DNA from: Sphingopyxis sp.
GTDB taxonomy: Bacteria; Pseudomonadota; Alphaproteobacteria; Sphingomonadales; Sphingomonadaceae
DNA: 64,000 nt
Reading direction: 5' to 3'
NCBI GenBank assembly: GCA_016793775.1
Contig: JAEULK010000013.1
Coordinates: 39,368-103,367 of the forward strand
Shown in pieces: positions 9,567 through 59,677 of this stretch. Numbering within the stretch: the stretch's first letter is position 1; each line of letters begins with the position of its first letter. Below the pieces are notes generated by a model. The model saw only the letters and a program-made list of their open reading frames with translations, was not told the origin of the DNA and made no database searches. Made by a program: the position numbers and the translations under genes.

Positions 9567-9607
9567 GGTTTCACGCAGAGGCGCGGAGGGAGCAGAGACC
9601 GCGGAGA
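9567..9607. repeat. Left inverted repeat bracketing the GxxExxY gene
   Basis: Begins GGTTTCACGCAGAGGCGC and continues through a CAGAGACCGC block. Its reverse complement, with a few mismatches and a one-base gap, is found at 10007-10048 on the other side of the gene. Confidence 0.75.
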
Positions 9608-9608
9608 A

Positions 9609-9655
9609 TCATTCTTCCGGGCGGTAATCATTGACGATCCGCTTTATGCCTTCCT
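9609..9655 (-). pseudogene. Frameshifted C-terminal tail of the GxxExxY protein
   Basis: In the next frame after the stop of the GxxExxY gene, the DNA encodes GATMKEGIKRIVNDYRPEE followed by TGA. This is the usual family C-terminus (NFG..xMKxGIxRIVN). A one-base loss or two-base gain near 9660-9670 explains the early stop. Confidence 0.65.
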
Positions 9656-10006
9656 TCATCGTCGCGCCCGAAAGTTGTGGAGCAGCCCGACGGGCTGCTG
9701 TAAAATTCTGAGATAGGTCAGGAGTTGCCTGGCATGGGCTTTGCCCAACTGCTCGACAGCTTTGATCTCCAACACAACCCGGTCGTCCACCAGAATATCG
9801 ACCCTGAAGGCTGTCTCGAAATGATGGCCGCCTACCATTAACGGCACGGCCAACTGGCGTGCCACTTTCAATCCCCGCGCTTCGAGCCGGCCCGCCAATA
9901 CGGTCTCATAAACGATCTCGAGCAAGCCGGGTCTCAAAAGCCGATGAATCGCGATCGCCTCATCGACGACGATGGCGCCGACATCGTCCATTCGCATCCG
10001 ACCCAT
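9656..10006 (-). CDS. GxxExxY protein (PD-(D/E)XK-like), C-terminally frameshifted
   Basis: The defining motif is present as PGLLEIVYETVL, followed by a nuclease-like core: FRVDILVDDRVVLEIKAVEQL, where D, E and K occupy PD-(D/E)XK-type positions. The family is about 125-135 residues and is widespread and uncharacterised. This copy is 116 residues because the reading frame shifts just after LLHNF; the lost tail is still readable downstream. The gene is isolated inside a pair of ~41-bp inverted repeats, the unit as a whole sitting between the hydrolase and the carboxyspermidine dehydrogenase genes. It may be a sequencing error, a decaying gene or a tolerated truncation. Confidence 0.8.
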   Translation of the reverse strand: MGRMRMDDVGAIVVDEAIAIHRLLRPGLLEIVYETVLAGRLEARGLKVARQLAVPLMVGGHHFETAFRVDILVDDRVVLEIKAVEQLGKAHARQLLTYLRILQQPVGLLHNFRARR

Positions 10007-10048
10007 CTCTCTGCGGTCTCTGCATCCTCTGCGCCTCTGCGTGAAACC
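10007..10048. repeat. Right inverted repeat bracketing the GxxExxY gene
   Basis: Ends GCGCCTCTGCGTGAAACC, the reverse complement of the left repeat. It starts right at the GxxExxY start codon and ends just before the dehydrogenase stop codon. Confidence 0.75.
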
Positions 10049-10051
10049 GAA

Positions 10052-11260
<1,209 letters not shown>

Positions 11261-11322
11261 CAAAATCTCCTGCGCCTAGCTATGCGGCTTGTCTTGTATG
11301 CCGCGCCCTATAGGACGAAGCC

Positions 11323-12327
11323 ATGACACAGCAAAGCCCTCAACCCCTTCCCGATAGCCTGCTCGATCCGGCGCGCGCGCCGACCCTTGCGGGCGTCGAA
11401 CGCGCGGCGGCGAAAGTCGCTGCATTGCTTCCCCGGACGCCGTTGTTGCCGCTCGAAGCCGATGGCGTGACGCTCTGGTGCAAGGCCGAGTGTCTGCAAC
11501 CGATCGGATCGTTCAAGATCCGCGGGGCGTGGAACCGGCTGACCGACCTTTCCCCCGAACAGGCGACCGCGGGCGTCGTCGGCGTGTCGAGCGGCAACCA
11601 TGCGCAGGGCGTCGCCTGGGCGGCGAAACGGCTGGGGATCAAGGCGACGATCGTGATGCCGAGCAATGCGCCGGCGATGAAGCTGGCGGCAACGCGGATG
11701 CTGGGGGCCGAGGTCGTGCTGTACGACCGCGTTACCGAATCGCGCGACGCGGTCGCGGCGAAGCTGCTCGATGAGAATGGCGGCACGCTGGTTCATGCCT
11801 ATGGCGATCCCTGGGTGATCGAGGGGCAGGGGACGGTCGGCATCGAGGCGGGCGCGCAGCTGGCGGCGCGCGGGATCGATGGGCCCGACAAGGTCGTCGC
11901 CTGTTGCGGCGGGGGTGGACTGTCGGCGGGTCTGGCGCTCGCCTGTCCCGATGCCGAGATCGTGGCGGTCGAGCCCGAGGGGTGGGACGATCTGACGCGC
12001 AGCCTGGCGGCGGGCGAGATCCTGTCGGTCGAGGACCTGTCCTATCCGACCGAATGCGATGCGCTGCAGACGCCGCAGACCTGGCCAATCAACTTCGCGG
12101 TGTTGCAGGCGCGCGGGGTGCGCGGGGTCGTCGTCACGCGCGAGGAAGTGCGCCATGCGATGCGCGTGGTGTTCGAGAAATTGCACCTCGTCGTCGAACC
12201 CGGTGGCGCGGCGGCGCTCGCGGCGGTGCTGGCGGGTAAGGTCGCGCCGGGGGCGGCGACGCTGGTCACCTTGTCGGGGGGCAATGTCGATCCCCAGAAA
12301 TATGCGGAAATTTTGGCTGGATACTAA
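11323..12327 (+). CDS. Threonine/serine dehydratase-like PLP enzyme (fold type II)
   Basis: A 334-residue beta-family PLP enzyme: PLP lysine K65 in GSFKIRGAW, SSGNHAQG (substrate binding), CCGGGGLSAG phosphate loop, and LSGGNVDP near the C-terminus. There is no C-terminal ACT domain, so it resembles catabolic threonine ammonia-lyase or serine racemase rather than feedback-regulated biosynthetic IlvA. It would deaminate Thr or Ser to a 2-oxoacid plus ammonia. It is divergent from the carboxyspermidine dehydrogenase gene with a 62-nt gap that must hold both promoters. The 2-oxobutyrate formed could feed the propionyl-CoA route, but this link is inference. Confidence 0.82.
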   Translation: MTQQSPQPLPDSLLDPARAPTLAGVERAAAKVAALLPRTPLLPLEADGVTLWCKAECLQPIGSFKIRGAWNRLTDLSPEQATAGVVGVSSGNHAQGVAWAAKRLGIKATIVMPSNAPAMKLAATRMLGAEVVLYDRVTESRDAVAAKLLDENGGTLVHAYGDPWVIEGQGTVGIEAGAQLAARGIDGPDKVVACCGGGGLSAGLALACPDAEIVAVEPEGWDDLTRSLAAGEILSVEDLSYPTECDALQTPQTWPINFAVLQARGVRGVVVTREEVRHAMRVVFEKLHLVVEPGGAAALAAVLAGKVAPGAATLVTLSGGNVDPQKYAEILAGY

Positions 12328-12363
12328 CCGGCGCTGGTGCGTTGCACCGATCGAAGGAGACAT

Positions 12364-12813
12364 ATGATGCATAAAGCGATGATCCTGTCCGGCGCCGCGG
12401 CGCTGGTGCTGCTGTCGGCGTGCGAAAAGGCCGAAGCACCCGCGCCGGCGCCGACCGAGACCACCGAAGTCGTGGATGAGACGGTGCCCGCCGACGCCGC
12501 CGATGTCGAAGCCGATTCCGCGACCGCGCCGCACCGCTTCGCCGACTGGGCGGGCAAATGGATCGGGGTCGAGGGCATGTATGTGACGATCACGCCGGGC
12601 GAGCCGGGCAAATACAAGCTCGACATGCAATCCGACCTCGACACCCAGGGCAGCTATGACGGCAGCGACAGCGAACATGGCATCAAGTTCAAGCGCGGCG
12701 CCGAGGAATTGAGCCTGCGCCGTGGCAGCGGCGACGAAACCGGCCTCAAATATCTGGCGGGCAAGAAGGAATGCCTGATCGTCAAGGAGGGCGAAGGCTA
12801 TTGCCGCGACTGA
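12364..12813 (+). CDS. Small lipoprotein of unknown function
   Basis: The ATG follows AAGGAG closely. The N-terminus MMHKAMILSGAAALVLLSAC is a lipoprotein signal with lipobox LSAC, so the mature protein is lipid-anchored at Cys. A Pro/Ala/Thr/Glu-rich linker follows, then a ~90-residue domain with W-K-W-I-G near its start (FADWAGKWIGVEGMYVTI) and two further cysteines (KKECLIV, GYCRD) that could form a disulfide. No family was recognised. It is 149 residues long and lies alone between the dehydratase and btaA genes. Confidence 0.75.
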   Translation: MMHKAMILSGAAALVLLSACEKAEAPAPAPTETTEVVDETVPADAADVEADSATAPHRFADWAGKWIGVEGMYVTITPGEPGKYKLDMQSDLDTQGSYDGSDSEHGIKFKRGAEELSLRRGSGDETGLKYLAGKKECLIVKEGEGYCRD

Positions 12814-12856
12814 CGCCCGCGAAGCTGACTTAAACCGGTCGAAGAGTGACGCCGTT

Positions 12857-12874
12857 CTGACATAAGTTGGTCAT
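12857..12874 (+). promoter_or_regulatory. Candidate Pho box upstream of btaA
   Basis: CTGACAT-AAGT-TGGTCAT matches the two CTGTCAT half-sites with 4-nt spacing at 11 of 14 positions. It is about 60 nt before the btaA start. In rhizobia, betaine-lipid genes are switched on by PhoB under phosphate limitation, which makes the site plausible. Confidence 0.4.
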
Positions 12875-12933
12875 GACGGTCACATGAACCGCGTCCACAG
12901 GCGACCCACAGAGTCGCCAAGGGGATCGCAACC

Positions 12934-14151
12934 GTGACCAGCCAGCCGAACCGCAAGATATCCGACGCCGTCGTCCGCGAGGATGCCGAGCAGAAGCAGC
13001 GCCTGCTCGATCGCGCCTTTGCGCTGGCCTTTCGCGGGCTCGTCTATGCGCAAATCTGGGAGGATCCGGTCGTCGATATGGCGGCGCTCGACATCCGGCC
13101 GGGCAACCGCATCGCGACGATCGCGAGCGGCGGATGCAACGTCTTTTCCTATCTCGTCGCCGACCCGGCAGAGATCGTCGCGGTCGACCTCAACACGGCC
13201 CATGTCGCGCTCAACCATCTGAAGCGCGTCGCGGCGCAGCGCCTGCCCGATTATGACGGCTTTCGCCGTTTCTTCGCCGACGCCGACAGCGGCGACAATG
13301 TCGAAGCATACAAGACCCACGTTCGTCCGCATCTGGACGAGGTCAGCCGTCGCTATTGGGAGGGGCGCGACCTGATCGGCCGGCGCCGCATCAACGGCTT
13401 CGCCTCGGGGCTCTACAAGCGCGGGCTGCTGGGCAATTTCATCGGCGTCGCGCATCTGCTGGCGCGGCTGATGAAGGCCGATCCGCGCCTGCTGCTCGAA
13501 GCGCGCGACATCGACGAGCAGCGGCATATTTTCAAAACGAAATTCGCGCCCTTCTTCGACAAGAAATTCGTCCGCTGGGTAACCGACCAGCGTTCGTCGC
13601 TGTTCGGGCTGGGCATCCCGCCAGCGCAATATGACGCGCTCGCGGGGGGCAAGCCGATGGCCGACGTGCTGCGCGCGCGGCTCGAGAAACTCAGCTGCGA
13701 TTTCGACCTCAAGGACAATTATTTCGCCTGGCAGGCGTTCGGGCGCGGCTATGGCCGCGGCGTCGAGGCGCCGCTGCCGCCCTATCTGCAGGCGGGCAAT
13801 TACGACGCGGTGAAGGCGCGCGCCGAGCGGGTGACGATGCTCCACGCCAATATGACCGATATGCTCGCGGGCGGCGAGGACGCCAGCTTCGACCGCTATG
13901 TCTTCCTCGATGCGCAGGACTGGATGACCGACCAGCAACTGCTTGCGCTGTGGAGCGAGGTCACGCGCACCGCGCGACCGGGCGCCCGCGTGCTGTTTCG
14001 CACCGCCGCCGAGCCGAGCCTGCTACCCGGACGGCTGCCGGACGACCTGCTCGATCGCTGGGACTATCGGGCTGAGGAGTCGCTGGATTATACACGCCGC
14101 GACCGGTCGGCGATCTATGGCGGGGTTCATCTCTATATATTGAAGCGCTGA
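12934..14151 (+). CDS. btaA: S-adenosylmethionine:diacylglycerol 3-amino-3-carboxypropyltransferase
   Basis: The first step of betaine lipid (DGTS) synthesis: transfer of the aminocarboxypropyl group of SAM to diacylglycerol. The 405-residue protein has the family features AFRGLVYAQIWEDP, the SAM-binding stretch RIATIASGGCNVFSYL with IVAVDLN after it, and the C-terminal FLDAQDWM and GARVLFRTAAEPS segments. It starts at GTG after AAGGGGA. The methyltransferase that completes the pathway starts 3 nt after the stop, so the two form an operon. Membranes made this way save phosphate, in line with a possible Pho box upstream. Confidence 0.88.
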   Translation: MTSQPNRKISDAVVREDAEQKQRLLDRAFALAFRGLVYAQIWEDPVVDMAALDIRPGNRIATIASGGCNVFSYLVADPAEIVAVDLNTAHVALNHLKRVAAQRLPDYDGFRRFFADADSGDNVEAYKTHVRPHLDEVSRRYWEGRDLIGRRRINGFASGLYKRGLLGNFIGVAHLLARLMKADPRLLLEARDIDEQRHIFKTKFAPFFDKKFVRWVTDQRSSLFGLGIPPAQYDALAGGKPMADVLRARLEKLSCDFDLKDNYFAWQAFGRGYGRGVEAPLPPYLQAGNYDAVKARAERVTMLHANMTDMLAGGEDASFDRYVFLDAQDWMTDQQLLALWSEVTRTARPGARVLFRTAAEPSLLPGRLPDDLLDRWDYRAEESLDYTRRDRSAIYGGVHLYILKR

Positions 14152-14154
14152 GCC

Positions 14155-14817
14155 ATGACCGGGGGGGAGGGTCATGCCGCGCTGATGGACGGCGTCTATC
14201 GCGGCCAGCGTCATATCTATGATCTGACCCGCAAATATTATCTGCTCGGGCGCGACCGGATGATCGACGAGCTGGCGCCGCCGGTGGGCGGTCATGTGCT
14301 TGAGGTCGGCTGCGGCACCGGGCGCAACCTGATCGCGGCGGCGCGCTGCTGGCCGGGGGCGCGTTTCCACGGCATCGATATTTCCGAGGAGATGCTGAAG
14401 AGCGCGCGCACCGCGATCGCCCGCGCCGGGCTGAGTCGGCGGATCAGCGTGGCGAAGGGCGACGCCACCGGCTTCGATCCGCACGCGCTGTTCCGCGTCG
14501 CGCAGTTCGACCGTATCTTCCAGAGCTACACTTTGTCGATGATCCCAGATTGGCAGGGCGCGATCCGCGAGGCGACGCGGCACCTGGCGGCCAATGGCGC
14601 GCTGCACATCGTCGATTTCGGGCAGCAGGAGGCGCTGCCCGGCTGGTTCCGCGCCGGGCTTTTCACCTGGCTGGACCGCTTCCACGTCGCACCGCGCGCG
14701 ATGCTGCCCGAGGCGGCGCGCGAGATCGCGAGTGATGTCGGCGGGCGCATGACGCTGGTGCGGCTCTATCGCGGCTATGCCTGGTCGGTGCGGATCGACA
14801 AGGGGCCGCGCCGCTAA
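14155..14817 (+). CDS. btaB: Diacylglyceryl-homoserine N-methyltransferase
   Basis: A 220-residue class I SAM methyltransferase with motif I HVLEVGCGTGRNL and a downstream GIDISEEML acidic loop. The family-specific N-terminus HIYDLTRKYYLLGRDRMI matches BtaB. It would methylate diacylglyceryl-homoserine three times to DGTS. The C-terminal half (QSYTLSMIPDWQ, VDFGQQEALPGWF) also fits. Directly downstream of btaA in the same operon. Generic methyltransferase function is certain; the specific role rests on the pairing and the N-terminal motif. Confidence 0.88.
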   Translation: MTGGEGHAALMDGVYRGQRHIYDLTRKYYLLGRDRMIDELAPPVGGHVLEVGCGTGRNLIAAARCWPGARFHGIDISEEMLKSARTAIARAGLSRRISVAKGDATGFDPHALFRVAQFDRIFQSYTLSMIPDWQGAIREATRHLAANGALHIVDFGQQEALPGWFRAGLFTWLDRFHVAPRAMLPEAAREIASDVGGRMTLVRLYRGYAWSVRIDKGPRR

Positions 14818-14867
14818 GCGGCTTGCCAAAGGACGCGCTAGCTGCTCCCCTTTGCGGCGGAGGGGCT

Positions 14868-15461
14868 ATGGACGAGACGATAGCAGCGGTGCAGGCGGGC
14901 GATGTGACGGCGGTGGTCGAAACGCTGGCGCAGGCGTTTCAGACCGACCCCGCGCTGTCGTGGATATTAGCCGAAGCCGATCATCGCGCGCGAGCGCTGC
15001 GTTCGCTGTTTCGCGTGCTGGTGCCGGCCGACAGGCGCGCGGGCGTCGCGTTGCGATCGGCGGGCGACGAAGCCGCCTCGCTGTGGCGCGCGCCGGGGCG
15101 GGCGCATAGCGGGACGCGCGAGTTTTTACGCACGGTGATCCCGCTGGTTGCGACCTTCGGCACCGCCCTGCCGCGCGGGCTGACGGTGCAGAACGGCATC
15201 GACGCGCACCGGCCCAAGGGGCGCTTCTGGTATCTCCACTATGTCGGGGTGCGGCCCGAGCATCAGGGCAAGGGTCATGGCGGGCGCATCATCCGGGCGC
15301 AGACGGCTATTGCCGATGCCGAGGGGCTGTCCTGCTGGCTGGAGACCGCGACGCCGGAGAATGTGCCGCTCTACGAACGGCTGGGCTTTGTGACGCAGGT
15401 CGAGTGGGATGTGCCGGGCGGCGGTCCGCATTTCTGGGGAATGACGCGGCTTGCCACCTAG
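14868..15461 (+). CDS. GNAT-family N-acetyltransferase
   Basis: The ATG is preceded by GGCGGAGGGG; a TTG 45 nt earlier has no comparable site. At 197 residues, the C-terminal half carries the acetyl-CoA loop: YLHYVGVRPEHQGKGHGGRII, then ETATPENVPLYERLGFV, the usual GNAT beta4/alpha3 and beta5 elements. The N-terminal half (TVVETLAQAFQTDPALSWIL) is typical of GNATs that modify small molecules. Substrate unknown. Its TAG stop codon is the first three bases of a 146-bp palindromic element, so the C-terminus may have been reset by that insertion. Confidence 0.82.
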   Translation: MDETIAAVQAGDVTAVVETLAQAFQTDPALSWILAEADHRARALRSLFRVLVPADRRAGVALRSAGDEAASLWRAPGRAHSGTREFLRTVIPLVATFGTALPRGLTVQNGIDAHRPKGRFWYLHYVGVRPEHQGKGHGGRIIRAQTAIADAEGLSCWLETATPENVPLYERLGFVTQVEWDVPGGGPHFWGMTRLAT

Positions 15462-15604
15462 GGCCGATCGACATTCAGCCCTGACGGCCTGCAAATGGCG
15501 GCTTTCCGCGCTTCCGGTGCTCACCTACTTTAAGTACGCTGCGCTCCGGGTCACGGAAAACCACCATTTTCGGCACGTCATCTTCTGAATGTCGATCGAC
15601 CCTA
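15459..15604. mobile_element. MITE-like palindromic element, copy A
   Basis: The ends are TAGGGCCGATCGACATTCAG and its near-perfect reverse complement at 15585-15604. The interior is an imperfect palindrome around a TACTTTAAGTA core. An inverted copy lies at 32890-33036. Both ends supply the TAG stops of the two convergent flanking genes. No ORF of its own and no clear target duplication were seen. Confidence 0.75.
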
Positions 15605-16291
15605 GTCGTCGAAACCCACGAAACGTACGGCATCCGCGACGCTCTTGCGGTTCGACACCACCGCGTTGGCCGGGAAATCGTCGGCGGGCCAACCCATCGC
15701 GACGCAGATCATGATCACCTGATCGTCCGGGATCTGCGCATGTTCGCGCACCACCGGCGACTGCATGATGCCCTGGCTGTTGATCACGCAGCCGAGACCC
15801 CGCGACCAGGCCGCGTTGACCAGCGCGTTGGTCACCGCGCCGCAGTCGAAGGGCGCGATGTCGCTGCCGAGCAGGATGCGGTCATAGGTGACGACGATGC
15901 TGACTGGGGCGTCGAACTGGCGGAAACCGCGCAGCACCCAGTCCTGCCGCGCGTCCTTGTCGTCGCGCGCGATGCCCATCGCACCGAACAATTGTTTGGC
16001 GATCTCGATCTGGCGCGCGCGGTGGTCGTCGGCGATACCGTCGAAGCGGCGGAATTCGCGGCTGTCGGGCTTGCCGGCGAGAATGCCCTCGGTATTGCCG
16101 CGGCGGATCGCGTCGAGCGCGGCGCCGGTGACGACCGAGAAATTCCAGCACTGGTTGTTGAACGACGAGGGCGCGCGCATCGCGACCTCGAGGATCTCGG
16201 CGATCAGCTCTTTCGGAACAGGCTTGTCGAGGAAGCCGCGAATGCTGCGGCGTCCCCTGACGACCTCGTCGAAACCCGGTGCGGTCGTCAC
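15602..16291 (-). CDS. Nitroreductase-family FMN oxidoreductase
   Basis: A 229-residue protein with the family N-terminus [21 protein letters not shown] (FMN phosphate-binding arginines) and [14 protein letters not shown]. Then [24 protein letters not shown] and the C-terminal [19 protein letters not shown]. It would use NAD(P)H to reduce nitro or quinone compounds; the actual substrate is unknown. The GTG start overlaps the hemA stop (GTGA), so expression is coupled to heme synthesis. Its stop codon lies in the terminal repeat of the adjacent palindromic element. Confidence 0.85.
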
Positions 16292-17508: not shown

Positions 17509-17644
17509 GTCTCAGCCCCGCAGTCAGGTGCCAGCACCGCTCCCTCCGGGCGGCTATTAACAGCCGGGCCAATAACGCCGGCAAGCGCCGAAAGCCAGTG
17601 CGAACGATTCGCAATTCAGGCGGCAGTTCAGTCTGATCGAGCGG

Positions 17645-18544: not shown

Positions 18545-18581
18545 CGCGCAATATCGCCACAAAGGCGCAAAGGGAGCAGGG
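18545..18581. repeat. Solo half of the CGCAAAG/CGCAGAG-type repeat
   Basis: The stretch CGCCACAAAGGCGCAAAG just before plsY resembles one arm of the inverted repeats around the GxxExxY gene and at 61.1 kb. No opposite arm is visible. Confidence 0.35.
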
Positions 18582-23332: not shown

Positions 23333-23414
23333 ACGTCGGCCCCGCGAAGGCGGGGGCCGCTATCGACCGAGCGCAAGGTTGCCCGCGGCCCCCGCCTTCG
23401 CGGGGGCGACGGTC
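23333..23414. repeat. CCCCGCGAAGGCGGGG palindromic repeat between topA and a convergent gene
   Basis: Arms CCCCGCGAAGGCGGGGGCC and GGCCCCCGCCTTCGCGGGG face each other across ~40 nt. The same repeat occurs at 44.6 kb and, in frame, within pdhC at 58.1 kb. Here it can serve as a bidirectional terminator. Confidence 0.75.
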
Positions 23415-32866: not shown

Positions 32867-32888
32867 CCCCTCCCGCTTGCGGGAGGGG
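32867..32888. repeat. CCCCTCCCGC/GCGGGAGGGG hairpin
   Basis: A perfect 10-bp stem with a two-base loop directly after the SDR stop and one base before the palindromic element copy B. Member of the GGGAGGGG repeat family; it may terminate the SDR transcript. Confidence 0.7.
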
Positions 32889-32889
32889 C

Positions 32890-33036
32890 TAGGGCCGATC
32901 GACATTCAGAAGATGACGTACCGAAAATGGTGGTTTTCCGCGCTTCCGGAGCGCAGCGTACTTAAAGTATGTGAGCACCGGAAGCGCGGAAAGCCGCCAT
33001 TTGCAGGCCGTCAGGGCTGAATGTCGATCGGCCCTA
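32890..33036. mobile_element. MITE-like palindromic element, copy B
   Basis: An inverted copy of the element at 15459-15604, with ends TAGGGCCGATCGACATTCAG and the exact reverse complement at 33017-33036. The interior palindrome and TACTTAAAGTA core are conserved. Its right end supplies the TAG stop of the convergent ScfR-type regulator gene. Confidence 0.75.
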
Positions 33037-34443
33037 GCCGATGCGGTAGGGCACGACGTCGCGGCGGTCGGGATCGACCAGGATCGGCCGGTCGCTCGGC
33101 GGGAAGGCGCGCTGGTCGCAATCGTCGCGCGGGCAGATGCGGCACGACGATCCGATGCGCGTCGCGGCCTGCGGTGCGGCGACATCGACCCCGTCGGCAT
33201 AGACGAAGTCGGCGGCATATTGCGCCTCGCAGCCGAGTGCGACGGCGTAGCGGCGCGGGCTACGCGCGTAGCTGCCGGACGGTTTCACCAGTCCCTTCGC
33301 CATAGACACATAGCGCAGCCCATCGGGGGTCTCGGCGAGCTGGAACAATATGCGGTCGGGGATCGCCGCCGCCTCGTGGACGACCCACAAAGGACAGGCG
33401 CCGCCGAAGCGGGCGAATTGCAGGCGCGTCGCGCTGTGCCGCTTGGTGATATTGCCCGCCATATCGACGCGGCAGAAGAACATCGGAATGCCGCGCGCAC
33501 CGGGGCGCTGGAGCGTCGAGAGGCGGTGGCACGCCTGCTCGAAACTGACGCCATAGTCCATGCGCAGCCGGTCGATGTCGTGGCGCACCGCGCGGGCGCT
33601 GGCGCGGAACGGGGCATAGGGCATCAGCACCGCGCCCGCGGCGTAGTTGGCGAGCCCGACGTGGAGCAATTGCCGTGCCGCCGCGGTGCGCAGCGGGCTC
33701 GCCTCGACCACCGCCGCAATTTCGTTGGCGAGCGCGAGCGCGGCGAGCTGGTGCGCGAGCTGGAAGCGGCGGCTCTCGGCGGGCTGCGACGGGTCGATCA
33801 CCAGGTGGCGCATCGTCGCGTCATAGTCGCGCAGCGCCTGCGTCTGGTTGTAGACGATCGAGATGCCGAGCGCGTCGCGCAGCCGCCGCTCGATCGTCTC
33901 GATCGCGGGCGAGGGCGCGCGTCCGCGCAATTGCCCCGCGAGTATCTCGGCGGCGCGGTCGATGCTGTCGACATAATTGCCCGCGTCGTGGAACCAGTCG
34001 CGCACCTCTTCCCACGGCAGGCGGCTGCCCTCGGCGGTGCCCCCGGTGAGCGCCTCGTCGATGATCTGGAGCCGCTGGCCGGCGCGGCGATAGGCGGCGT
34101 GGAGCGCGACGAACTGGTCGGCGAGCTGCGGCTGTTGCAGCGCGGCGCGTTCGAGCTGTTCGGGGGGCAGGGGGGAGGCGGCGAAGAGTGGGTCGGCGGC
34201 GGCTTCGCGCAGCGCGCCCTGGCGGCGGTCGCCGACGTCGGCCGCGACCTCCTCCCATTCGAGTGGGAACAGGCGCTGTAGGCGTTCGAGCAAAGCGGGG
34301 GTCAGCGGGCGGTCGTCATGCTCGATCTGGCTGAGGTAGGAGGCGGAAATGCCGAGCTGCGCGGCGAAGTCGGCCTGGCGGATCGCACGGGCTTCCCGAA
34401 GCCCGCGAAGTTGTCGCCCAGCGTAAAGGCGGGTTGGCAGCAT
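33034..34443 (-). CDS. Short-chain fatty acyl-CoA regulator (ScfR/PccR/MccR type)
   Basis: A 469-residue transcription factor. Residues ~7-60 are an XRE-type helix-turn-helix ([20 protein letters not shown] then [11 protein letters not shown]). A middle region with [18 protein letters not shown] resembles the ImmA/IrrE fold, and the C-terminus is DUF2083 with the cysteine cluster [16 protein letters not shown]. Proteins of this group sense acyl-CoA intermediates and control propionyl-CoA carboxylase. Divergence from pccB and the TTTGCAAA repeats in the shared promoter agree. The ATG at 34443 is chosen because the longer frame crosses those operators. The stop codon comes from the neighbouring palindromic element. 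Confidence 0.88.
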
Positions 34444-36636: not shown

Positions 36637-36798
36637 TACCCCCTCTCCCGTCGGGAGATGGTTGCGAAGACTTGGCGCCAAAGGCGCCTAGTCGAAGCTG
36701 GGTGAGGGGATGGACGCTATCGAGAGGGCAGAGACCCTCACCAACTCCGCCTAAGCCTACGGCCAAGGCTTCGTATCCTCTCCCGGTGGGAGAGGAGA
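36637..36798. repeat. CCCTCTCCC-type palindromic repeat between epimerase and mutase genes
   Basis: The arms CCCCCTCTCCCGTCGGGAGA and CCTCTCCCGGTGGGAGAGG lie at the two ends; inside are TTGGCGCCAAAGGCGCC and GCCTACGGCCAAGGC. It looks like a two-armed, gene-less member of the repeat family that brackets the DUF559 gene at 59.2-59.7 kb. It fills the gap and holds no ORF. Confidence 0.6.
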
Positions 36799-36816
36799 TA
36801 TGGAACGAGACTGCAT

Positions 36817-44573: not shown

Positions 44574-44587
44574 CGGTTGCACAACGA

Positions 44588-44680
44588 CCGTCGCCCCCGC
44601 GAAGGCGGGGCCGTTATCAATCGTGCCCAACCCGCGCGGTTTTGAGCCGACAGCGGCCCCCGCCTTCGCGGGGGCGACGG
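44588..44680. repeat. CCCCGCGAAGGCGGGG palindromic repeat
   Basis: CCGTCGCCCCCGCGAAGGCG at one end is mirrored by CGCCTTCGCGGGGGCGACGG at the other. Same family as the repeat at 23.3 kb and the one inside pdhC. It separates the convergent MAPEG and cyclase genes. Confidence 0.8.
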
Positions 44681-44691
44681 TTAAACGCGGT

Positions 44692-52442: not shown

Positions 52443-52484
52443 GAAGGGCTTCTCCCGCCCTCAACGACGGAAAATCATAATCCC

Positions 52485-54011
52485 ATGGTCAAACATGCGC
52501 TCAGCGTAACCCGGCAGGCCGACTTCGCGGCCTGGTATCAGGATGTCATTGCCGAGGCCGACCTCGCCGAGGAATCGGGGGTGCGCGGCTGCATGGTGAT
52601 CAAGCCGTGGGGGTACGGCATCTGGGAACGCATTCAAAAGGTGATGGACGCCGCGATCAAGGATGCCGGCGTCCAGAATGCTTATTTCCCGCTCTTCATC
52701 CCCTTGAGCTTCTTCGAGAAGGAAGCCGACCATGTCGATGGTTTCGCGAAGGAAATGGCGGTCGTCACGCACCACCGGCTGATCCAGGACGCGAAGGGCA
52801 AGCTCGTTCCCGATCCCGAGGCGAAGCTCGAGGAGCCGCTGATCGTCCGTCCGACGTCGGAGACGGTGATCGGCAGCGCGATGAGCCGCTGGGTGCAGAG
52901 CTGGCGCGACCTGCCGCTGAAGGTCAACCAATGGGCCAATGTCGTGCGCTGGGAAATGCGCACCCGCATGTTCCTGCGCACCAGCGAATTCCTGTGGCAG
53001 GAAGGCCATACCGCGCACGCCGACAAGGACGACGCGATGGCCGAGACGCTGCGCGCGCTCGAAATGTACCGCGCCTTCGCCGAGGATGTCCTCGCGATGC
53101 CCGTCGTCGCGGGCGAGAAGCCCGAGAACGAGCGTTTCCCGGGCGCGGTCGCGACCTATTCGATCGAGGCGATGATGCAGGATGGCAAGGCCTTGCAGGC
53201 CGGCACCTCGCATTATCTGGGCACCGGCTTCGCCGAGGCGGCGAACATCCGCTACCAGGACAAGGACGGCGGCCACAGCCTCTGCCACACGACCAGCTGG
53301 GGCACATCGACGCGGATGATCGGCGGGGTCATCATGACGCATGGCGACGACGATGGCCTCCGCTGTCCGCCGCGCATCGCGCCGCACCAGATCGTCATCG
53401 TGCCGATGCTGCGCGACAATGACGAGGATGTGGCGATCCTCGATTATTGCCGCGATCTGGAGGCGAGCCTCAAGGCGCTCGACGCCTTCCGCGAACCCGT
53501 GCGCGTGCTGCTCGACACCAGCGGCGCCAAGGCGCAGACCAAGCGCTGGGGCTGGGTCAAGAAGGGCGCACCGGTAATCGTCGAAATCGGTCCGCGCGAC
53601 GTCGCGGGCGGCAATGTCGCGGTCATCCGCCGCGACCGGCTGTACAAGGACGACGGCAAGCTCGACACCGCCTTCGTCGCCAAGGGCGATTTCGTCGCAG
53701 CTGCGGTGGCGATGCTCGAAGATATCCAGACCGGCCTCTACGCCGAGGCCAAGGCGCGGCTCGATACGAACATCGCCCGCGATGTCTCGGATCTGAAAGC
53801 GCATTTCGCCGGCGACGACAAGGTCGTCGGCTGGGCCGAGGTGCAATGGTCGCGCCCGACCGGCGCCGCGCTCGACACGATCGTCGAGCAGTTGAAGGCG
53901 CTGAAGCTGACGATGCGCAACACGCCGCTCGATGCCGCCCCGGCCGACGGCGCCTGCTTCTTCACCGGCGAGCCCGCGGTCGAACGTGTGCTCGTGGGAC
54001 GCACCTATTGA
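52485..54011 (+). CDS. proS: Prolyl-tRNA synthetase, archaeal/eukaryote-like type
   Basis: Charges tRNA(Pro). The class II core reads FPLFIPLSFFEKEADHVDGF (motif 1 area), NVVRWEMRTRMFLRTSEFLW with QEGHTAHADKDDA (motif 2), and GGVIMTHGDDDGLRCPPRIA (motif 3). The order and spacing, the HTAHA box and the C-terminal extension after the anticodon domain (ends VERVLVGRTY) match the eukaryote/archaeon-like form, without the bacterial INS editing domain between motifs 2 and 3. The 508-residue length fits that form. It may have entered the lineage by old transfer. Confidence 0.92.
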   Translation: MVKHALSVTRQADFAAWYQDVIAEADLAEESGVRGCMVIKPWGYGIWERIQKVMDAAIKDAGVQNAYFPLFIPLSFFEKEADHVDGFAKEMAVVTHHRLIQDAKGKLVPDPEAKLEEPLIVRPTSETVIGSAMSRWVQSWRDLPLKVNQWANVVRWEMRTRMFLRTSEFLWQEGHTAHADKDDAMAETLRALEMYRAFAEDVLAMPVVAGEKPENERFPGAVATYSIEAMMQDGKALQAGTSHYLGTGFAEAANIRYQDKDGGHSLCHTTSWGTSTRMIGGVIMTHGDDDGLRCPPRIAPHQIVIVPMLRDNDEDVAILDYCRDLEASLKALDAFREPVRVLLDTSGAKAQTKRWGWVKKGAPVIVEIGPRDVAGGNVAVIRRDRLYKDDGKLDTAFVAKGDFVAAAVAMLEDIQTGLYAEAKARLDTNIARDVSDLKAHFAGDDKVVGWAEVQWSRPTGAALDTIVEQLKALKLTMRNTPLDAAPADGACFFTGEPAVERVLVGRTY

Positions 54012-54015
54012 TCTC

Positions 54016-54166
54016 GTTCGCGCGGAGACGCGGAGACGCGGAGATATTGCGCCTGCCGCAAAGCGACGATCCTCGTCCAACGCTGCGGCCAGTCGCGCCG
54101 TGGGATAAAGTACGGGGCCTCGCGGCCCGAGCCATCCCCTCCGCGTCTCCGCGTCTCCGCGCGAAC
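54016..54166. repeat. Gene-less inverted-repeat unit, CGCGGAGA type
   Basis: Two perfect 28-bp arms in inverted orientation (54016-54043 and 54139-54166; the left arm begins GTTCGCGCGGAGACGCGGAG) enclose 95 bp without an ORF. The arms are made of a CGCGGAGA tandem and resemble those around the GxxExxY gene. It fills the gap between proS and rnr. Confidence 0.8.
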
Positions 54167-54180
54167 CATTTGGACGTCCG

Positions 54181-56598
54181 ATGAAAAAACCCAAGCCGCA
54201 ACCCGGCCTTCCCACGCCCGACCAGATTCTGCGCTTCATCGCCGACAGCAGCGATGCGGTCGGCAAGCGCGAGATCGCCAAGCATTTCGGCCTCCACGGC
54301 AATGACAAGATCGCGCTGAAGGCGCTGCTCAAGGACATGACCGACGAGGGGCTCGTCGACATGGCGCCGGGGCGCGCCTTCCACAAACATGGCGGGCTGC
54401 CGAAGGTAACGGTGCTGCGCGTTGCGGCGATTGAGGGCAGCAACGTCTGGGCGGTGCCCGACCGCTGGGAAGGCGCGGGCGCGCCGCCGCGGCTGCGCGT
54501 CATGGAGCAAGGTCGCAAGGGCGCGCTTGGCGTCGGCGACCGCGTGCTCGCGCGCACCGAGGAGCGCGGCGGCGGCCATGTCGCGCATCCGATGAAGCGG
54601 CTGCAGGCGAGCGCCGAACTCGTCATCGGCGTGCTCGTCCACGACACCGGCCCCGGCGGCAAAGCGATGACCTGGCTGCGCCCCGCCGACAAGCGCGCGC
54701 GTTTCGACTTCGCGGTCGCCGACATGGGCGACGCCGGTATCGGCGACCTGGTCCGCGCCGAGCTGACCGGACGCGGCCCCGCGACCAAGGCCAAGGTGAT
54801 CGAGCGCATCGGCGATCCCTTCGCGCCCAAGGCGCTCAGCATGATCGCGATCGCGCGCCACGAAATCCCGCATATATTCGGCGCCGAGACGATCGCCGAG
54901 GCCGAACGCGCGGCGAAACTGCCGCTGACGCCCGAGGGGCGCGAGGATCTGCGCGACCTGCCGATCGTCGCGATCGACCCGATCGACGCGCGCGACCATG
55001 ACGACGCGGTGTGGGCGATCCCCGACGACGATGCGACCAACAGGGGCGGCTTCAAGGCGATCGTCGCGATCGCCGACGTGAGCTATTATGTCCGCCCCGA
55101 CGGCGAACTCGACCGCGAGGCGCGGCGGCGCGGCAACAGCGTCTATTTCCCCGACCGCGTCGTGCCGATGCTGCCCGAAACGCTCTCCGCCGGCGTCTGC
55201 TCGCTCAAAGCCGGCGAGGATCGCGCCGCGATGGCGTGCCACCTCGTCATCGACAAGCATGGCAAGGTGACGTCATGGCGTTTCGCCCGCGCGCTGGTGC
55301 GGCTGCGCGCGAACATCGCCTATGAACAGGCGCAGGCGATGATCGATGGCGAGCCGATCCTCCCCGGAACGGGGAGGGGGACCAGCGAAGCTGGTGGAGG
55401 GGTACCCTCGGGGAAGCGTGCCGCCGAAACCTCGCGCAAACCGCCCGTACCCCTCCACCATCCTGCGGATGGTTCCCCTCCCCCTGCGGGAGAGGATCTT
55501 TTGCCCGCGCTCCAGAATCTCTGGGCCTGCTGGGCGCTGCTGGCGACCGCGCGCGCCGCCCGCGCGCCGCTCGACCTCGACCTGCCCGAACGCCAGGTCA
55601 TCCTCGACGAGAAGGGCGGGATCGCCGAAATCCGCGTGCGCGACCGGCTCGATTCGATGCGGCTGATCGAGGATTATATGATCGCGGCGAATGTCGCGGC
55701 GGCGAAGGCGCTCGAGGCGAAGAAATCGCCGGTGATGTACCGCATCCACGAACCGCCGAGCCGCGAAAAGCTGGTCAGCCTCAAGGATTATCTCGAAACC
55801 TTCGAACAAAGTTTCGCGCTCGGGCAGGTCATCACCCCCGCGGTGTTCAATCGGCTGATCGACGGCTTTTCCGAAGACGACCGGTTGCCCGAGATCATGC
55901 AGGCGATCCTGCGTAGCCAGACCCAGGCCTATTATGGTCCCGCCAACGCCGGCCATTTCGGCCTCGCGCTCGGCAGCTACGCGCATTTTACCTCGCCGAT
56001 CCGCCGCTACGCCGACCTGATCGTCCACCGCGCGCTCGTCGACAGCTACAAACTCGAAGTACCCGGCAAGCCGAAAGACCTGCCCGCGCGTACCGGGCTG
56101 GGCGAGGCCGATGCCAAGGGATTGTCGCGCATCGGCGAGGCGATCAGCGCGCTGGAGCGCCGCGCGATGGAGGCCGAGCGCGAGACGATCGACCGCTATG
56201 TCGCGGCCTATCTCGCCAACAAGGCGGGCGAGATCGTCGCGGCGCGGATCACCGGGGTGCAGCCCTTCGGCTTTTTCGCGACGGTCGACGGGCTCGGCGG
56301 CGACGGGCTGGTGCCGGTGTCGACTTTGGGCAGCGAGCGCTTCTTCTACGACGAGGCGGCGCGGACGCTCGACAGCGAGCATGGCCGGGTGAGCTACACC
56401 GTGGGCCAGCGGCTCGACCTGCGGCTGATGGAGGCGAATCCGGTGAGCGGCGCGCTGCGGTTCGAGCTGCCCGATGCGCCCGAGGGCGGTTTCCGCGATC
56501 GTCCGGTTCGGCGCGACGGGCTCAAGAAGGCGGGCAAGCATGTCGTCGGCAAGCGCGGCCGGCCGGCGAATATCAAGCATAAGGGGCGGAAAAGATAA
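54181..56598 (+). CDS. rnr: Ribonuclease R, with a repeat-encoded insertion
   Basis: 3'-5' exoribonuclease for structured RNA. N-terminal winged-helix-like and cold-shock domains, then the RNB catalytic domain: RDLPIVAIDPIDARDHDDAVW with its metal-binding aspartates, GGFKAIVAIADVSYYVRPDG, YFPDRVVPMLPETLS, and YAHFTSPIRRYADLIVHRAL; a C-terminal S1 domain (GEIVAARITGVQPFGFFATV) and a basic tail (GKRGRPANIKHKGRKR). At residues ~393-439 about 45 extra residues (PILPGTGRGTSEAGGGVPSG onward) come from an in-frame palindromic repeat. The frame is intact, so the enzyme may work with this loop. Confidence 0.94.
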   Translation: MKKPKPQPGLPTPDQILRFIADSSDAVGKREIAKHFGLHGNDKIALKALLKDMTDEGLVDMAPGRAFHKHGGLPKVTVLRVAAIEGSNVWAVPDRWEGAGAPPRLRVMEQGRKGALGVGDRVLARTEERGGGHVAHPMKRLQASAELVIGVLVHDTGPGGKAMTWLRPADKRARFDFAVADMGDAGIGDLVRAELTGRGPATKAKVIERIGDPFAPKALSMIAIARHEIPHIFGAETIAEAERAAKLPLTPEGREDLRDLPIVAIDPIDARDHDDAVWAIPDDDATNRGGFKAIVAIADVSYYVRPDGELDREARRRGNSVYFPDRVVPMLPETLSAGVCSLKAGEDRAAMACHLVIDKHGKVTSWRFARALVRLRANIAYEQAQAMIDGEPILPGTGRGTSEAGGGVPSGKRAAETSRKPPVPLHHPADGSPPPAGEDLLPALQNLWACWALLATARAARAPLDLDLPERQVILDEKGGIAEIRVRDRLDSMRLIEDYMIAANVAAAKALEAKKSPVMYRIHEPPSREKLVSLKDYLETFEQSFALGQVITPAVFNRLIDGFSEDDRLPEIMQAILRSQTQAYYGPANAGHFGLALGSYAHFTSPIRRYADLIVHRALVDSYKLEVPGKPKDLPARTGLGEADAKGLSRIGEAISALERRAMEAERETIDRYVAAYLANKAGEIVAARITGVQPFGFFATVDGLGGDGLVPVSTLGSERFFYDEAARTLDSEHGRVSYTVGQRLDLRLMEANPVSGALRFELPDAPEGGFRDRPVRRDGLKKAGKHVVGKRGRPANIKHKGRKR
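55360..55497. repeat. In-frame GGGAGGGG palindromic repeat within rnr
   Basis: The left arm GGGGAGGGGGACCAGCGAAG, ending TGGTGGAGGGGTA, is mirrored by TACCCCTCCACCATCC...GGTTCCCCTCCCC on the right. The length is compatible with uninterrupted translation. It is the same repeat type as at 56.6 kb and around the DUF559 gene. Confidence 0.8.
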
Positions 56599-56603
56599 CG
56601 GGT

Positions 56604-56702
56604 TCCCCTCCCTGCAAGGGAGGGGCTAGGGGTGGCTGCGAGCGGAGCGAGCCGCACTACCGTTGCTACCCACCCCCGACCCCTCCCTTGCAGGGAGAGG
56701 GG
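56604..56702. repeat. CCCCTCCCTGCAAGGGAGGGG paired palindromes
   Basis: Two hairpins, CCCCTCCCTGCAAGGGAGGG (from 56605) and CCCCTCCCTTGCAGGGAGAG (from ~56679), enclose AGCGAGCGGAGC-like sequence. They lie between rnr and the decayed gene pair and can terminate both sides. Confidence 0.75.
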
Positions 56703-56703
56703 A

Positions 56704-56925
56704 TTACCCGCCCGCCAATCGCTGCAACAACGCAGCACTCTCCGCATCGGCCGGAAAAAACGCCTCGATCGCCAATTCCGACAGCGTGATATCCACGGGC
56801 GTCCCGAAGATCGTCACCGTCGAGACGAAGCCGATCCGCCCCGCGATCGTGTCGAGCAGCATCGGCACCGCGATGCTGCTCACCGCGCCATGGCCGCTGT
56901 CGTTCGCGGGTCCCGGATAGTCTGC
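56704..56925 (-). pseudogene. C-terminal remnant of a regulator-like protein (possibly MmyB/XRE type)
   Basis: The minus-strand frame ends with GAVSSIAVPMLLDTIAGRIG, then FVSTVTIFGTPVDITLSELA, IEAFFPADAESAALLQRLAGG. I recall similar ends in XRE regulators with the MmyB ligand-binding domain, but the match is from memory. The helix-turn-helix part is missing: upstream of about 56925 the frame turns into the antisense of the next remnant. There is no start codon or ribosome site of its own. Confidence 0.45.
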
Positions 56926-57171
56926 GATTTCGCCGCGGGGCGGCTGATGGTCGTCGCCGCAAGGCAGAAGGTGCCGAGCGCCGCGCTGGTCAAGCTGATC
57001 GCGCGCGGCAATCTCGGCTGGGTCGCGGCGAGCTTTGCGGTGGTCGCGACCTATGCCGGCCAGATGACGGGCATCGGCATCGCGGTCGTCGTTGCGCAGG
57101 CGCTCGGCGTGCTCGGCTTCGCGATCCTCCAAGGCAAGGGCGCCGCCGTTCCGCGCGCGGTCCTGATCTAG
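56925..57171 (+). pseudogene. C-terminal remnant of a small integral membrane protein
   Basis: The frame reads CDFAAGRLMVVAARQKVPSA then ALVKLIARGNLGWVAASFAV and ends in two hydrophobic helices (TGIGIAVVVAQALGVLGFAIL). It looks like the last two or three helices of a ~130-residue four-helix protein; the first helices and start are missing. It begins at the same point where the opposite-strand regulator remnant ends, so one deletion seems to have removed both 5' parts and the shared promoter. Confidence 0.5.
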
Positions 57172-57623
57172 CTCAACGCATCGAGCCGCGCGATATCGAT
57201 CCCGCCCGGCACCAGCATCACCGGACAGGGGAGCGTGCCCGCATCCTGTCCGGTGAAATGCGCGACCAGCGGCCCCGGCGCGCCCGACGCTGCCGTCGCC
57301 AGCACCAAAGCGGCGATCTCGTCATTTTCGGCGATCACCGCGCATACGACCTCGGCGGGCTTGCCCTGGCGGACCATGATCTGCGGCGTGACATTGGCTT
57401 CCTGCTGCACTGTGTCCGCCGCCGCCGACACCAGCGCCTCGGCATGTTCGCGCGCTTCGGCCTCGATCGTAGCCTGGACGCCGCCGAAGGCGACAAAATC
57501 CTGCGGCGGGATGATCGCCAACACCGCGACTCCGCCGCCGGTGCGCGCCGCGCGGCGCGCCGCGAAGCGCAGCGCCAGGCTCGCCTCCGGACTGTCGTCG
57601 ATCACGACCAGATAGGTACGCAT
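57168..57623 (-). CDS. Universal stress protein (UspA family)
   Basis: A 151-residue protein with the Usp fold: YLVVIDDSPEASLALRFAAR at the N-terminus, VLAIIPPQDFVAFGG, IMVRQGKPAEVVCAVIAEND and a final G-2x-G-9x-G(S/T)-like ATP-loop region that reads LATAASGAPGPLVAHFTG, less conserved than the ATP-binding type. The ATG is chosen for GAGGGG upstream; an ATG 15 nt earlier is possible. Its stop overlaps that of the convergent membrane-protein remnant by 3 nt. Divergent from pdhC with ~157 nt between them. Confidence 0.85.
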   Translation of the reverse strand: MRTYLVVIDDSPEASLALRFAARRAARTGGGVAVLAIIPPQDFVAFGGVQATIEAEAREHAEALVSAAADTVQQEANVTPQIMVRQGKPAEVVCAVIAENDEIAALVLATAASGAPGPLVAHFTGQDAGTLPCPVMLVPGGIDIARLDALS

Positions 57624-57780
57624 GCCCCGACCCCTCATATTTTTTCGGGTGGAGAGTGCGTCACATTCGTATGAAAGGCAAGTTTGCCCCAATGGACGTT
57701 GACGAACGATGGTCTTATGACGAGGGGGTAATCCGTAGCGGCAGGCCCGGCCTGCAAGACTGACAGGGACAAGCCAGACG

Positions 57781-59148
57781 ATGCCGATCGAACTCAAAAT
57801 GCCCGCCCTTTCGCCGACGATGGAGGAAGGGACGCTCGCCAAATGGCTGGTCAAGGAGGGCGACACGGTGAAGTCGGGCGACCTGCTCGCCGAGATCGAG
57901 ACCGACAAGGCGACGATGGAGTTCGAGGCCATCGACGAGGGCGTGGTCAGCCAGATCCTCGTCGCCGAGGGCACCGACAATGTGAAGGTGGGCACTGTGA
58001 TCGCGACGATTACGGGCGAGGGTGAGGATGCCAGCGCGGCGAAGGCGGCGCCTGCTGCTGCTGCTGCTGCGGCACCGGCTCCGGCTGCCAAGGAAGAGGC
58101 ACCCAAACAAGAGGACGTCGCCCCCGCGAAGGCGGGAGCCGCTAGCGATAGTGCACCAACTCCAGCGGCCGCGGCGGGAGGCACGGGACTCCCGACGCCC
58201 TCCGCGGGGGCGACGGATAAGGGCGAGCGCATCAAGGCCAGCCCGCTCGCCAAGCGCCTCGCCGCCGAGCGCGGCATCGACCTGTCGACCATCAAGGGCA
58301 GCGGCCCCGGCGGCCGCATCGTCAAGGACGACCTCGACGGCGCCCCCGCCAGTGCAGCCGCCGCTGCGCCGCAAGCCGCTGCACCGGTCGCTGCTGCGAC
58401 CTCGGCTCCCGCCGCCGCGCCGGCCCCTGCCACGGCCGGCGCGATACCCGACTTCGGCATCCCGCACGAGGACGAAAAGCTCAGCGGCATGCGCAAGACG
58501 ATCGCGCGCCGGCTCAGCCAGTCGATGCAGGAATCGCCGCACATCTACCTCACCGTCGATATTCGCCTCGACGCGCTGCTGAAGCTGCGCGGCGAGCTCA
58601 ACGCCAGCCTCGAAGGGCGCGGGGTCAAGCTCAGCGTCAACGACATGCTGATCAAGGCGCTCGCGGTCGCGCTCGAGCGCGTGCCGGCGTGCAACGTGTC
58701 GTTCGGCGGCGACGTGATGCGCAAATACAGCCGCGCCGACATCTCGGTCGCGGTCAGCATCCCGGGCGGGTTGATCACCCCGATCATCGTCGATGCGGGC
58801 GGCAAGTCGATGTCGAAAATCTCGGCCGAAATGGCCGAACTCGCCGCGAAGGCCAAGGAAGGCAAGCTCCAGCCCAGCGAATATCAGGGCGGCACCGCCA
58901 GCATCTCGAACATGGGCATGATGGGGATCAAGCAGTTCACCGCGGTGATCAACCCGCCGCAGGGCATGATCCTGGCGATCGGGGCGGGCGAGAAGCGCCC
59001 CTATGTCGTCGATGACGCGCTCGCGATCGCGACCGTCATGTCGGCGACCGGCAGCTTCGACCACCGCGCGATCGACGGTGCGGATGGCGCGCTGCTGATG
59101 AAGACCTTCAAGGACCTGGTGGAAAGCCCGCTGGGGCTGGTGGCATAA
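57781..59148 (+). CDS. pdhC: Pyruvate dehydrogenase E2, dihydrolipoamide acetyltransferase
   Basis: Core of the pyruvate dehydrogenase complex. One lipoyl domain with the lipoyl lysine K43 in ETDKATMEF; an Ala/Pro linker; an E3/E1-binding domain at ~153-187 ([28 protein letters not shown]); then the acetyltransferase domain ending in [12 protein letters not shown] with catalytic H428. Length is 455 residues. Part of the linker (~112-146, [15 protein letters not shown] ...) is encoded by a GCGAAGGCGGG palindromic repeat. E1 genes are not adjacent; E3 (lpdA) follows after the DUF559 gene. Confidence 0.95.
58115..58216. repeat. In-frame CGAAGGCGGG palindromic repeat within pdhC
   Basis: The left arm GTCGCCCCCGCGAAGGCGGG and the right arm CCCTCCGCGGGGGCGACG mirror each other as in the intergenic copies at 23.3 and 44.6 kb. 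It keeps the frame and encodes part of the flexible linker. Confidence 0.75.
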
Positions 59149-59149
59149 C

Positions 59150-59677
59150 ATGCCCGAGGGACCGAATAGCCCCTCTCCCCTTGCGGGAGAGGGGTTGGGG
59201 AGTGGGGTCCCCGCCGCGTCCGCGGCGCACAAGACTCTCTCCGAAGTCCTCGCCCGAAAGGCCCTGTTGCTTGACCGCGCCCGCCAGATGCGCGCCAATC
59301 CTACCGATGCCGAACGCCGGCTCTGGTCGATCCTGCGCGCGGGGCGGCTTGAAGGCCTCCGCTGGCGCCGTCAGGAGATCATCGACGACTGCTACATCGC
59401 GGACTTCATCTGCTTCGAGCATCGGCTGATCGTCGAGGCCGATGGCGGGCAGCATAGCGAAAACGTCTATGACGCCGAACGCGATGCCTATCTGACCGCG
59501 CAAGGCTTTCGGATATTTCGCTTCTGGAACAACGACATCCTGGCCAACAGCGACGGCGTCGTCGCGAGCATCCTCGATGCCATCGATTCTCATGGCGCGC
59601 AGACGCGCGCCGACCACACACCCCAACCCCTCTCCCGCAAGGGGAGAGGGGCTTTTGAAGGAGCCCATAATGGCTGA
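59150..59677 (+). CDS. DUF559 (Vsr-like) endonuclease-domain protein inside inverted repeats
   Basis: A 175-residue protein. The DUF559 core runs ~45-150: RANPTDAERRLWSILRAGRL, FRRQE-type (LRWRRQEIIDDCYIADFICF), EADGGQH and FRIFRFWNNDILANSDGV, with acidic and His residues arranged as in Vsr-type PD-(D/E)XK nucleases. The first ~15 residues (NSPSPLAGEGLG) and last ~20 (PQPLSRKGRGA) are translated from the flanking inverted repeats, so the native start may be later, for example at MRANPTDAERR. The gene overlaps the lpdA start by 8 nt and separates E2 from E3, as an inserted cassette would. Confidence 0.8.
   Translation: MPEGPNSPSPLAGEGLGSGVPAASAAHKTLSEVLARKALLLDRARQMRANPTDAERRLWSILRAGRLEGLRWRRQEIIDDCYIADFICFEHRLIVEADGGQHSENVYDAERDAYLTAQGFRIFRFWNNDILANSDGVVASILDAIDSHGAQTRADHTPQPLSRKGRGAFEGAHNG
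59168..59199. repeat. Left inverted repeat of the DUF559 unit
   Basis: Begins GCCCCTCTCCCCTTGCGGGA and ends GGTTGGGG. The 32-bp sequence is found as an exact reverse complement at 59621-59652. Confidence 0.85.
59621..59652. repeat. Right inverted repeat of the DUF559 unit
   Basis: Begins CCCCAACCCCTCTCCCGCAA and ends GGGGAGAGGGGC; reverse complement of the left arm. Each arm is itself palindromic (CCCCTCTCCC/GGGAGAGGGG). Confidence 0.85.

Follow-up and report, generated by a model that had tools for sequence, protein, structure and literature searches.

Two short genes in a 64,000-nucleotide stretch of Sphingopyxis sp. DNA (the window; G000:C13:39368-103367, within the 3.93-Mb draft genome G000) raise the question of whether a nuclease can maintain and spread a family of bacterial repeats. 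One encodes a protein of the GxxExxY family; the other, between odhB and lpd (gene names assigned from Pfam domains), encodes a DUF559 protein. Each lies between inverted repeats, and short elements with similar arms and no gene are scattered through the window. A first-pass annotation had likened this arrangement to that of repetitive extragenic palindromes (REPs) and REP-associated tyrosine transposases (RAYTs). We find that the parallel holds, in that the enzyme gene lies inside its own inverted repeats and relatives lacking a gene are scattered in numbers that track the enzyme, for GxxExxY also in subtype and between sister pairs. We assign a probability of about 0.5 to the reading that these are two REP/RAYT-like enzyme-plus-repeat systems, in which PD-(D/E)XK-type nucleases act in trans on matching arms and the elements are then copied.

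We first considered how far bracketing exceeds chance, measured as the inverted-repeat score between the two 350-base flanks of the nuclease. Both window genes do lie between repeats of their own type, as annotated: the GxxExxY and DUF559 units score 31 and 37.5, with arms of 41 and 50 nucleotides, respectively, that are 90% complementary in each unit (Table 1). By comparison, for 2807 placements drawn at random within the window the 99th percentile of this score is 14 and the highest value 16.5; flanking parts of loci (n = 130) go no higher than 14, which two of them reach. Family membership is clear for both proteins (PF13366, E 3.7e-30, and TIGR04256, E 1.4e-31, for GxxExxY; PF04480, E 2e-37, for DUF559). 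Because its final residues deviate from the family consensus, the window GxxExxY copy may be decayed or contain an assembly error; both DUF559 arms fall within the reading frame as called. Five such genes are present in the whole draft genome (two for GxxExxY, three for DUF559), each of them between inverted repeats. In the genus, the first 52 GxxExxY units scored at least 15; since the remaining 13 score at least 17.5, all 65 are bracketed. For DUF559, where the set comprised 73 units that are the best-scoring part of all matches, 66 of the 72 evaluable units score at least 14.

If the nucleases act on the dispersed repeats, repeat number should follow nuclease number. Across 80 genomes of the genus, motif counts correlate with copies of the corresponding nuclease (Spearman 0.75 for DUF559 and 0.77 for GxxExxY). 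In partial correlations the own type gives 0.67 and 0.70 and the other type 0.42 and 0.40, so a genome-wide trend is shared as well. Equal abundance of the repeats in genomes lacking the gene would have spoken against the earlier proposal and was not observed: median matches per Mb are 1.6 in the 40 genomes without GxxExxY versus 19.2 in the 40 with it, and 2.0 in the 10 genomes without DUF559 versus 12.6 in the 70 with it. Relatedness was controlled with two overlapping 30-genome marker sets, one of which is the lpd set. In the nearest pairs discordant for GxxExxY, the carrier is richer in repeats in 11/11 and 14/14 cases in the two marker sets, and GxxExxY presence remains associated with repeat number in generalized least squares fits that account for relatedness (p 1.5e-8 and 3.7e-8). 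The corresponding fit for DUF559 copies in the lpd set returned a standard error of 0.00, looks singular, and was discarded.

Repeat sequence also follows nuclease clade for GxxExxY, a correlation that the first-pass annotation had proposed to look for. Outside the units, CGCGGAG-type repeats have medians of 29 in the 14 genomes with a nuclease of that type, 3 in the 26 with other types only, and 0 in the 40 with none, and CGCAAAG-type repeats have medians of 20.5 (12 genomes), 3 (28), and 0 (40); own versus other type gives p 1e-4 and 0.003, and the subtype cross tests give p 0.75 and 0.58, all four values being uncorrected for kinship. Arm similarity drops with protein distance in both families (GxxExxY, rho -0.63, 61 units, 0/2000 permutations; DUF559, rho -0.61, 66 units, 0/1000 permutations), and for GxxExxY it still does so with one unit per site (7 sites, rho -0.54, 14/2000 permutations). 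Within a unit, the similarity between the two arms (0.89) is greater than that to arms of the nearest nucleases elsewhere (0.56), a difference inflated by the choice of arms for complementarity.

The GxxExxY arrangement extends well beyond the genus. In a GTDB profile scan, limited to the best 80 loci and biased toward close relatives, 75 of 80 loci score at least 14, compared with 3 of 150 controls. The closest named relatives are mostly Sphingomonadales; outside that order, as judged from record titles, 35 of 40 loci are bracketed, including loci from Verrucomicrobia, Planctomycetes, Desulfobacteraceae, Chloroflexi, Nostocales, and KSB1, while the five unbracketed GTDB loci are titled WOR-3, Sumerlaeia, Desulfobacterales, Verrucomicrobiota, and Gemmatimonadota. 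A common motif runs through the arms, TCAC followed by CGCAAAG- or CACAAAG-like units at 8- to 9-base spacing. Two adjacent units of this motif occur on both sides of the gene in 61/80 loci (55 pointing inward and 6 outward, e.g., L277 and L288), on one side in 17/80, and on neither side in 2/80, versus both sides in 0/150 controls. The repeats had been described as hairpins, which is apt for DUF559; arms of the GxxExxY type are instead 8-bp-periodic, fold poorly alone, and pair with the opposite arm. DUF559 is more variable: 16 of 29 loci examined phylum-wide are bracketed, and 3 of 58 controls reach at least 14, one of them at 23. G-quadruplex motifs occur in 91 of 132 DUF559 arm regions (66 units) versus 3 after mononucleotide shuffling; the whole window has only 4. 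Two DUF559 units, L302 (G276) and L344 (on a viral contig), have very long near-identical arms of ~100 and 79 bases and are perhaps recently active.

Phage or plasmid carriage was considered and rejected; we found no GxxExxY relative in viral contigs and GxxExxY in 7 of 72,556 plasmid records. Family-type arms flank 4 of these 7 plasmid genes (including those of Bacteroides and Bernardetia), a count made without a control set, and none of those in Fusobacteria, Treponema, and Prevotella. The Fusobacteria plasmid gene (L376) lacks the usual arms and lies, by eye, between two similar direct stretches. DUF559 was found at 16 viral loci and in 36 plasmid records; 9 of the 15 scored viral loci reach at least 16 (L339 was left out, and L338 and L340 look like one element).

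Where the nuclease genes sit bears on how they could move. Grouping by flank homology on both sides places 61 GxxExxY units at 11 sites and 66 DUF559 units at 10. A fabG-like neighbour is matched by 23 GxxExxY loci, and in Sphingomonas parapaucimobilis a GxxExxY gene lies between fabD and fabG. The earlier description of two autonomous units is thus unsupported, because the nuclease genes are for the most part found at the same few orthologous positions; it is the gene-less elements that turn over between sister species. Occupancy of the sites is patchy, with several copies in some genomes. Of 30 genomes compared at the odhB-lpd junction, 8 have a DUF559 unit of the window type, 5 have a different DUF559 type, and 6 are empty (1-2 nucleotides); the remaining 11 hold other sequence, which in one genome includes a lone right arm. 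The window GxxExxY unit is carried by 2 of 30 genomes (G000 and G030), 18 lack it and have other sequence at the site, and 10 could not be judged; no clean empty site for it was found among these 30. A scan for target duplications, with 50/52 GxxExxY and 58/66 DUF559 units anchored, gave no consistent signal; short ATG-containing duplications are possible at two sites.

Units at few sites, patchy presence, empty alleles, and two DUF559 types at odhB-lpd are features that site-specific homing would also produce. Under that explanation the nuclease would cut the unfilled allele of one junction (odhB-lpd or the fabG site) and be copied in by repair, its arms would serve as structural ends or terminators, and some other route would account for the spread of the dispersed repeats. 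Among solved structures, the DUF559 profile matches, besides an "Endonuclease-Like Protein" (3hrl, E 6e-38), a "Mobile intron protein" (3r3p, E 8.2e-5), which we take to be I-Bth0305I. We nevertheless consider homing unlikely, as it leaves unexplained why the number and subtype of the dispersed gene-less repeats should correspond to the nuclease.

Empty-site alleles, which the first-pass annotation had also proposed to look for, do exist for the gene-less elements in the sister genomes G030 and G034 (94% identity at one site). Thirteen G030 repeat clusters (154 kb) could be placed in G034, where the site has a related repeat in 4 cases, another DUF559-type subtype in 2, an unrelated repeat in 2, no repeat called in 4, and a degraded solo motif in 1; two further G030 matches are the arms of a nuclease unit absent from G034. 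Alignments of the two genomes show clean absence at three sites, one of them that of a GxxExxY-type element of ~150 bases. At one shared site (G030:C41:38567 and G034:C1:84775), one sister has a GxxExxY-type composite and the other a DUF559-type element.

The proteins themselves look like nucleases. In 45 GxxExxY sequences, D70, K82, and Q94 are invariant and E80 and Y98 are at least 90% conserved, which at the level of sequence is a PD-(D/E)XK pattern; no GxxExxY relative was detected among solved structures (best E 0.16). PADLOC defence models gave weak matches only, the best being Cas4b (E 7e-4). GxxExxY is under purifying selection (median dN/dS 0.07 in 90 pairs, at high dS). Such strong selection would also suit a housekeeping or repair nuclease that processes folded repeats in the course of genome maintenance, the repeats being tolerated substrates that it does not spread. 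The available part of PMC12907096 points the same way for DUF559: it links the Caulobacter DUF559 protein VsrA to DNA damage in vivo and proposes it as a Vsr-like repair enzyme. On its own, maintenance does not explain why repeats of its own type flank the nuclease in almost every case, and we regard it as quite improbable.

In the enzyme-plus-repeat reading that we prefer, each nuclease gene would be kept at a few fixed sites, flanked by inverted repeats that mark its system, and its product would act in trans on matching arms elsewhere. The GxxExxY nuclease would bind both arms through about three 8-bp units per arm, and the DUF559 nuclease would bind arms made of a hairpin, a G-rich linker, and a second hairpin. 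The enzyme would then nick or cut the folded element, and the gene-less element would be copied elsewhere by repair or replication, leaving no consistent target duplication. That the nuclease mobilises the elements, that its substrate is a cruciform or hairpin, and that copying follows are what we infer from the associations described above.

Several observations weigh against this scheme. Nuclease units are gained and lost too, the window GxxExxY unit being present in G030 and missing from its sister G034. After correction for relatedness, DUF559 presence is not significantly associated with its repeats (p 0.064 and 0.21), and DUF559 discordant pairs are few, the carrier being richer in 2/3 and 2/2. 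Seven genomes without GxxExxY have at least 25 motif matches, which are perhaps relics, and 13 of the 29 phylum-wide DUF559 loci are unbracketed. Catalysis by either nuclease is predicted from sequence. Finally, the only predictors of repeat number compared were the nuclease genes of the own and other type, and a RAYT or an insertion sequence (IS) transposase could instead have spread the repeats, with the nuclease as a captured passenger; unrelated repeat families do occupy the same intergenic spots. But capture would hardly yield 65/65 bracketing, one GxxExxY motif across phyla, and subtype matching, nor is there a consistent target duplication; we hold this possibility to be very doubtful.

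We then compared the two systems with known ones. The available portion of PMC8049555 describes RAYTs as genes that are present in one copy, are inherited vertically, and duplicate REPINs. As with REP/RAYT, the dispersed repeats track the enzyme flanked by their own kind (for DUF559 by copy number, more weakly after correction). The enzyme genes here mostly recur at few sites, but occupancy is patchy, some genomes hold several copies, and one sister genome lacks the unit. The enzymes here match only PD-(D/E)XK-type families (PF13366/TIGR04256 and PF04480), whereas RAYTs are tyrosine (HUH/Y1) transposases; neither is a RAYT, because the enzyme belongs to another class. In addition, the GxxExxY arms are not hairpins, and by eye the listed arms have no GTAG tag. 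CGTC-tagged REPs are likewise dispersed palindromes but differ in sequence from the repeats here, which have a nuclease partner; the accessible text of PMC3733652 states that CGTC repeats lack an association with transposase genes, and it names no nuclease partner. The EDxHD homing endonuclease family (I-Bth0305I type; described in the excerpt of PMC3943268) shares with DUF559 a sequence relation to 3r3p and the patchy occupancy of conserved sites, but not the inverted repeats and dispersed gene-less relatives; no intron family was matched in the window by Rfam, a search that does not cover inteins. VsrA has the DUF559 domain in common with our proteins, but no repeat association is mentioned in the part of its report at hand, and the VsrA flanks lie outside this comparison. 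IS elements and miniature inverted-repeat transposable elements resemble the present elements in being short and gene-less with terminal inverted repeats and nested insertions; our units differ in having no DDE transposase and no consistent target duplication. A search of the available literature found no description of GxxExxY or DUF559 genes with matching repeats: PMC8934634 mentions GxxExxY once, in passing, and the terms RAYT, nuclease, DUF, Sphingo, and transposase are all absent from PMC12306157, which concerns REPs.

Most of the gene-less relatives annotated in the window stand. Those at 54016, 61074, 56605, 18558, 6971, and 32867 were confirmed, and the two-hairpin ends at 36.64-36.80 and 55.36-55.50 kb were read by eye, whereas a DUF559 relative placed at 22.01 kb is matched by no pattern and sits in a reading frame with topoisomerase domains. 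The 54016-type element has relatives in 46 of 80 genus genomes. In an alignment of 21 copies of ~150 bases, the arms form a 27-pair stem enclosing conserved inner hairpins, and 95.2% of cells pair. Both partners differ between copies in 10 of 37 pairs (mean of the shuffles 6.4, with 10 reached by 2/500; best slid control 7), although kinship among sequences can beat such shuffles. No Rfam family reached its gathering threshold across the window, and nine loci gave two weak unrelated matches. The idea that a gene-less element is an internally deleted nuclease unit was rejected, as its interior differs from the gene by eye. The 55.36-kb element interrupts an RNase R-type gene in frame. It is carried by 2 of 8 genomes compared, and a third genome has a different insertion.

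Table 1. Nuclease units and gene-less relatives in the window (positions from its first nucleotide).
Feature	Position	Strand	Remark
GxxExxY unit arm, CGCAGAG/CGCGGAG units	9567..9607	+	
GxxExxY gene (PF13366/TIGR04256), PD-(D/E)XK-type	9656..10006	-	profile match; C-terminus departs from family
GxxExxY unit, opposite arm	10008..10048	-	
DUF559 reading frame (PF04480 at residues 42-145), between odhB and lpd	59150..59677	+	
DUF559 unit arm, hairpin and G-rich linker	59165..59214	+	
DUF559 unit, opposite arm	59607..59656	-	
Gene-less GxxExxY-type element, CGCGGAG arms (paired), conserved inner hairpins	54016..54166	.	
Gene-less GxxExxY-type element, CACGAAGCC arms (paired)	61074..61237	.	
Solo GxxExxY-type arm	18558..18572	+	
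Gene-less DUF559-type element, two inverted (paired) hairpins	56605..56702	.	
Gene-less DUF559-type element, two-hairpin ends	55357..55500	.	by eye
Gene-less DUF559-type element, two-hairpin ends	36640..36800	.	by eye
Single DUF559-type hairpin	6971..6991	.	
Single DUF559-type hairpin, abuts another inverted-repeat element	32867..32888	.	

Other repeats lie within or beside these elements. The 61074-61237 element contains another, CTGAGCCTGTCGAAG-like hairpin repeat, and in other genomes the same post-lpd spot has different repeat families. CGCGGAG-type elements are nested inside CGCAGAG-type arms in an identical arrangement at G007:C20:22308-22522, G007:C43:4372-4588, and G008:C14:196099-196315. 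A second element type, at 15458-15605 and 32887-33039, has 21- to 23-bp terminal inverted repeats (CTAGGGCCGATCGACATTCAG) and inner hairpins; its latter copy abuts a DUF559-type hairpin. At 23334-23411 and 44587-44681 are paired CGTC-tagged palindromes that resemble the CGTC REPs in the available part of PMC3733652.

It is conceivable, at slightly less than even odds in our judgment, that these systems form a second, HUH-free class in which PD-(D/E)XK-type nucleases, long parked in core operons, keep and copy populations of structured elements with matching arms, and that the GxxExxY branch, with its 8-bp-periodic motif in many phyla, is the unrecognised source of one common class of genomic repeats. 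The GxxExxY and DUF559 families are both common, and neither has a settled role (for DUF559, VsrA apart); their matching repeats suggest a testable function. The nuclease link may explain repeat families without a known transposase, and it would also account for insertion polymorphism at the junctions of core operons and within a coding gene. Such systems would offer an independent comparison for the persistence of enzyme-repeat populations in bacteria.

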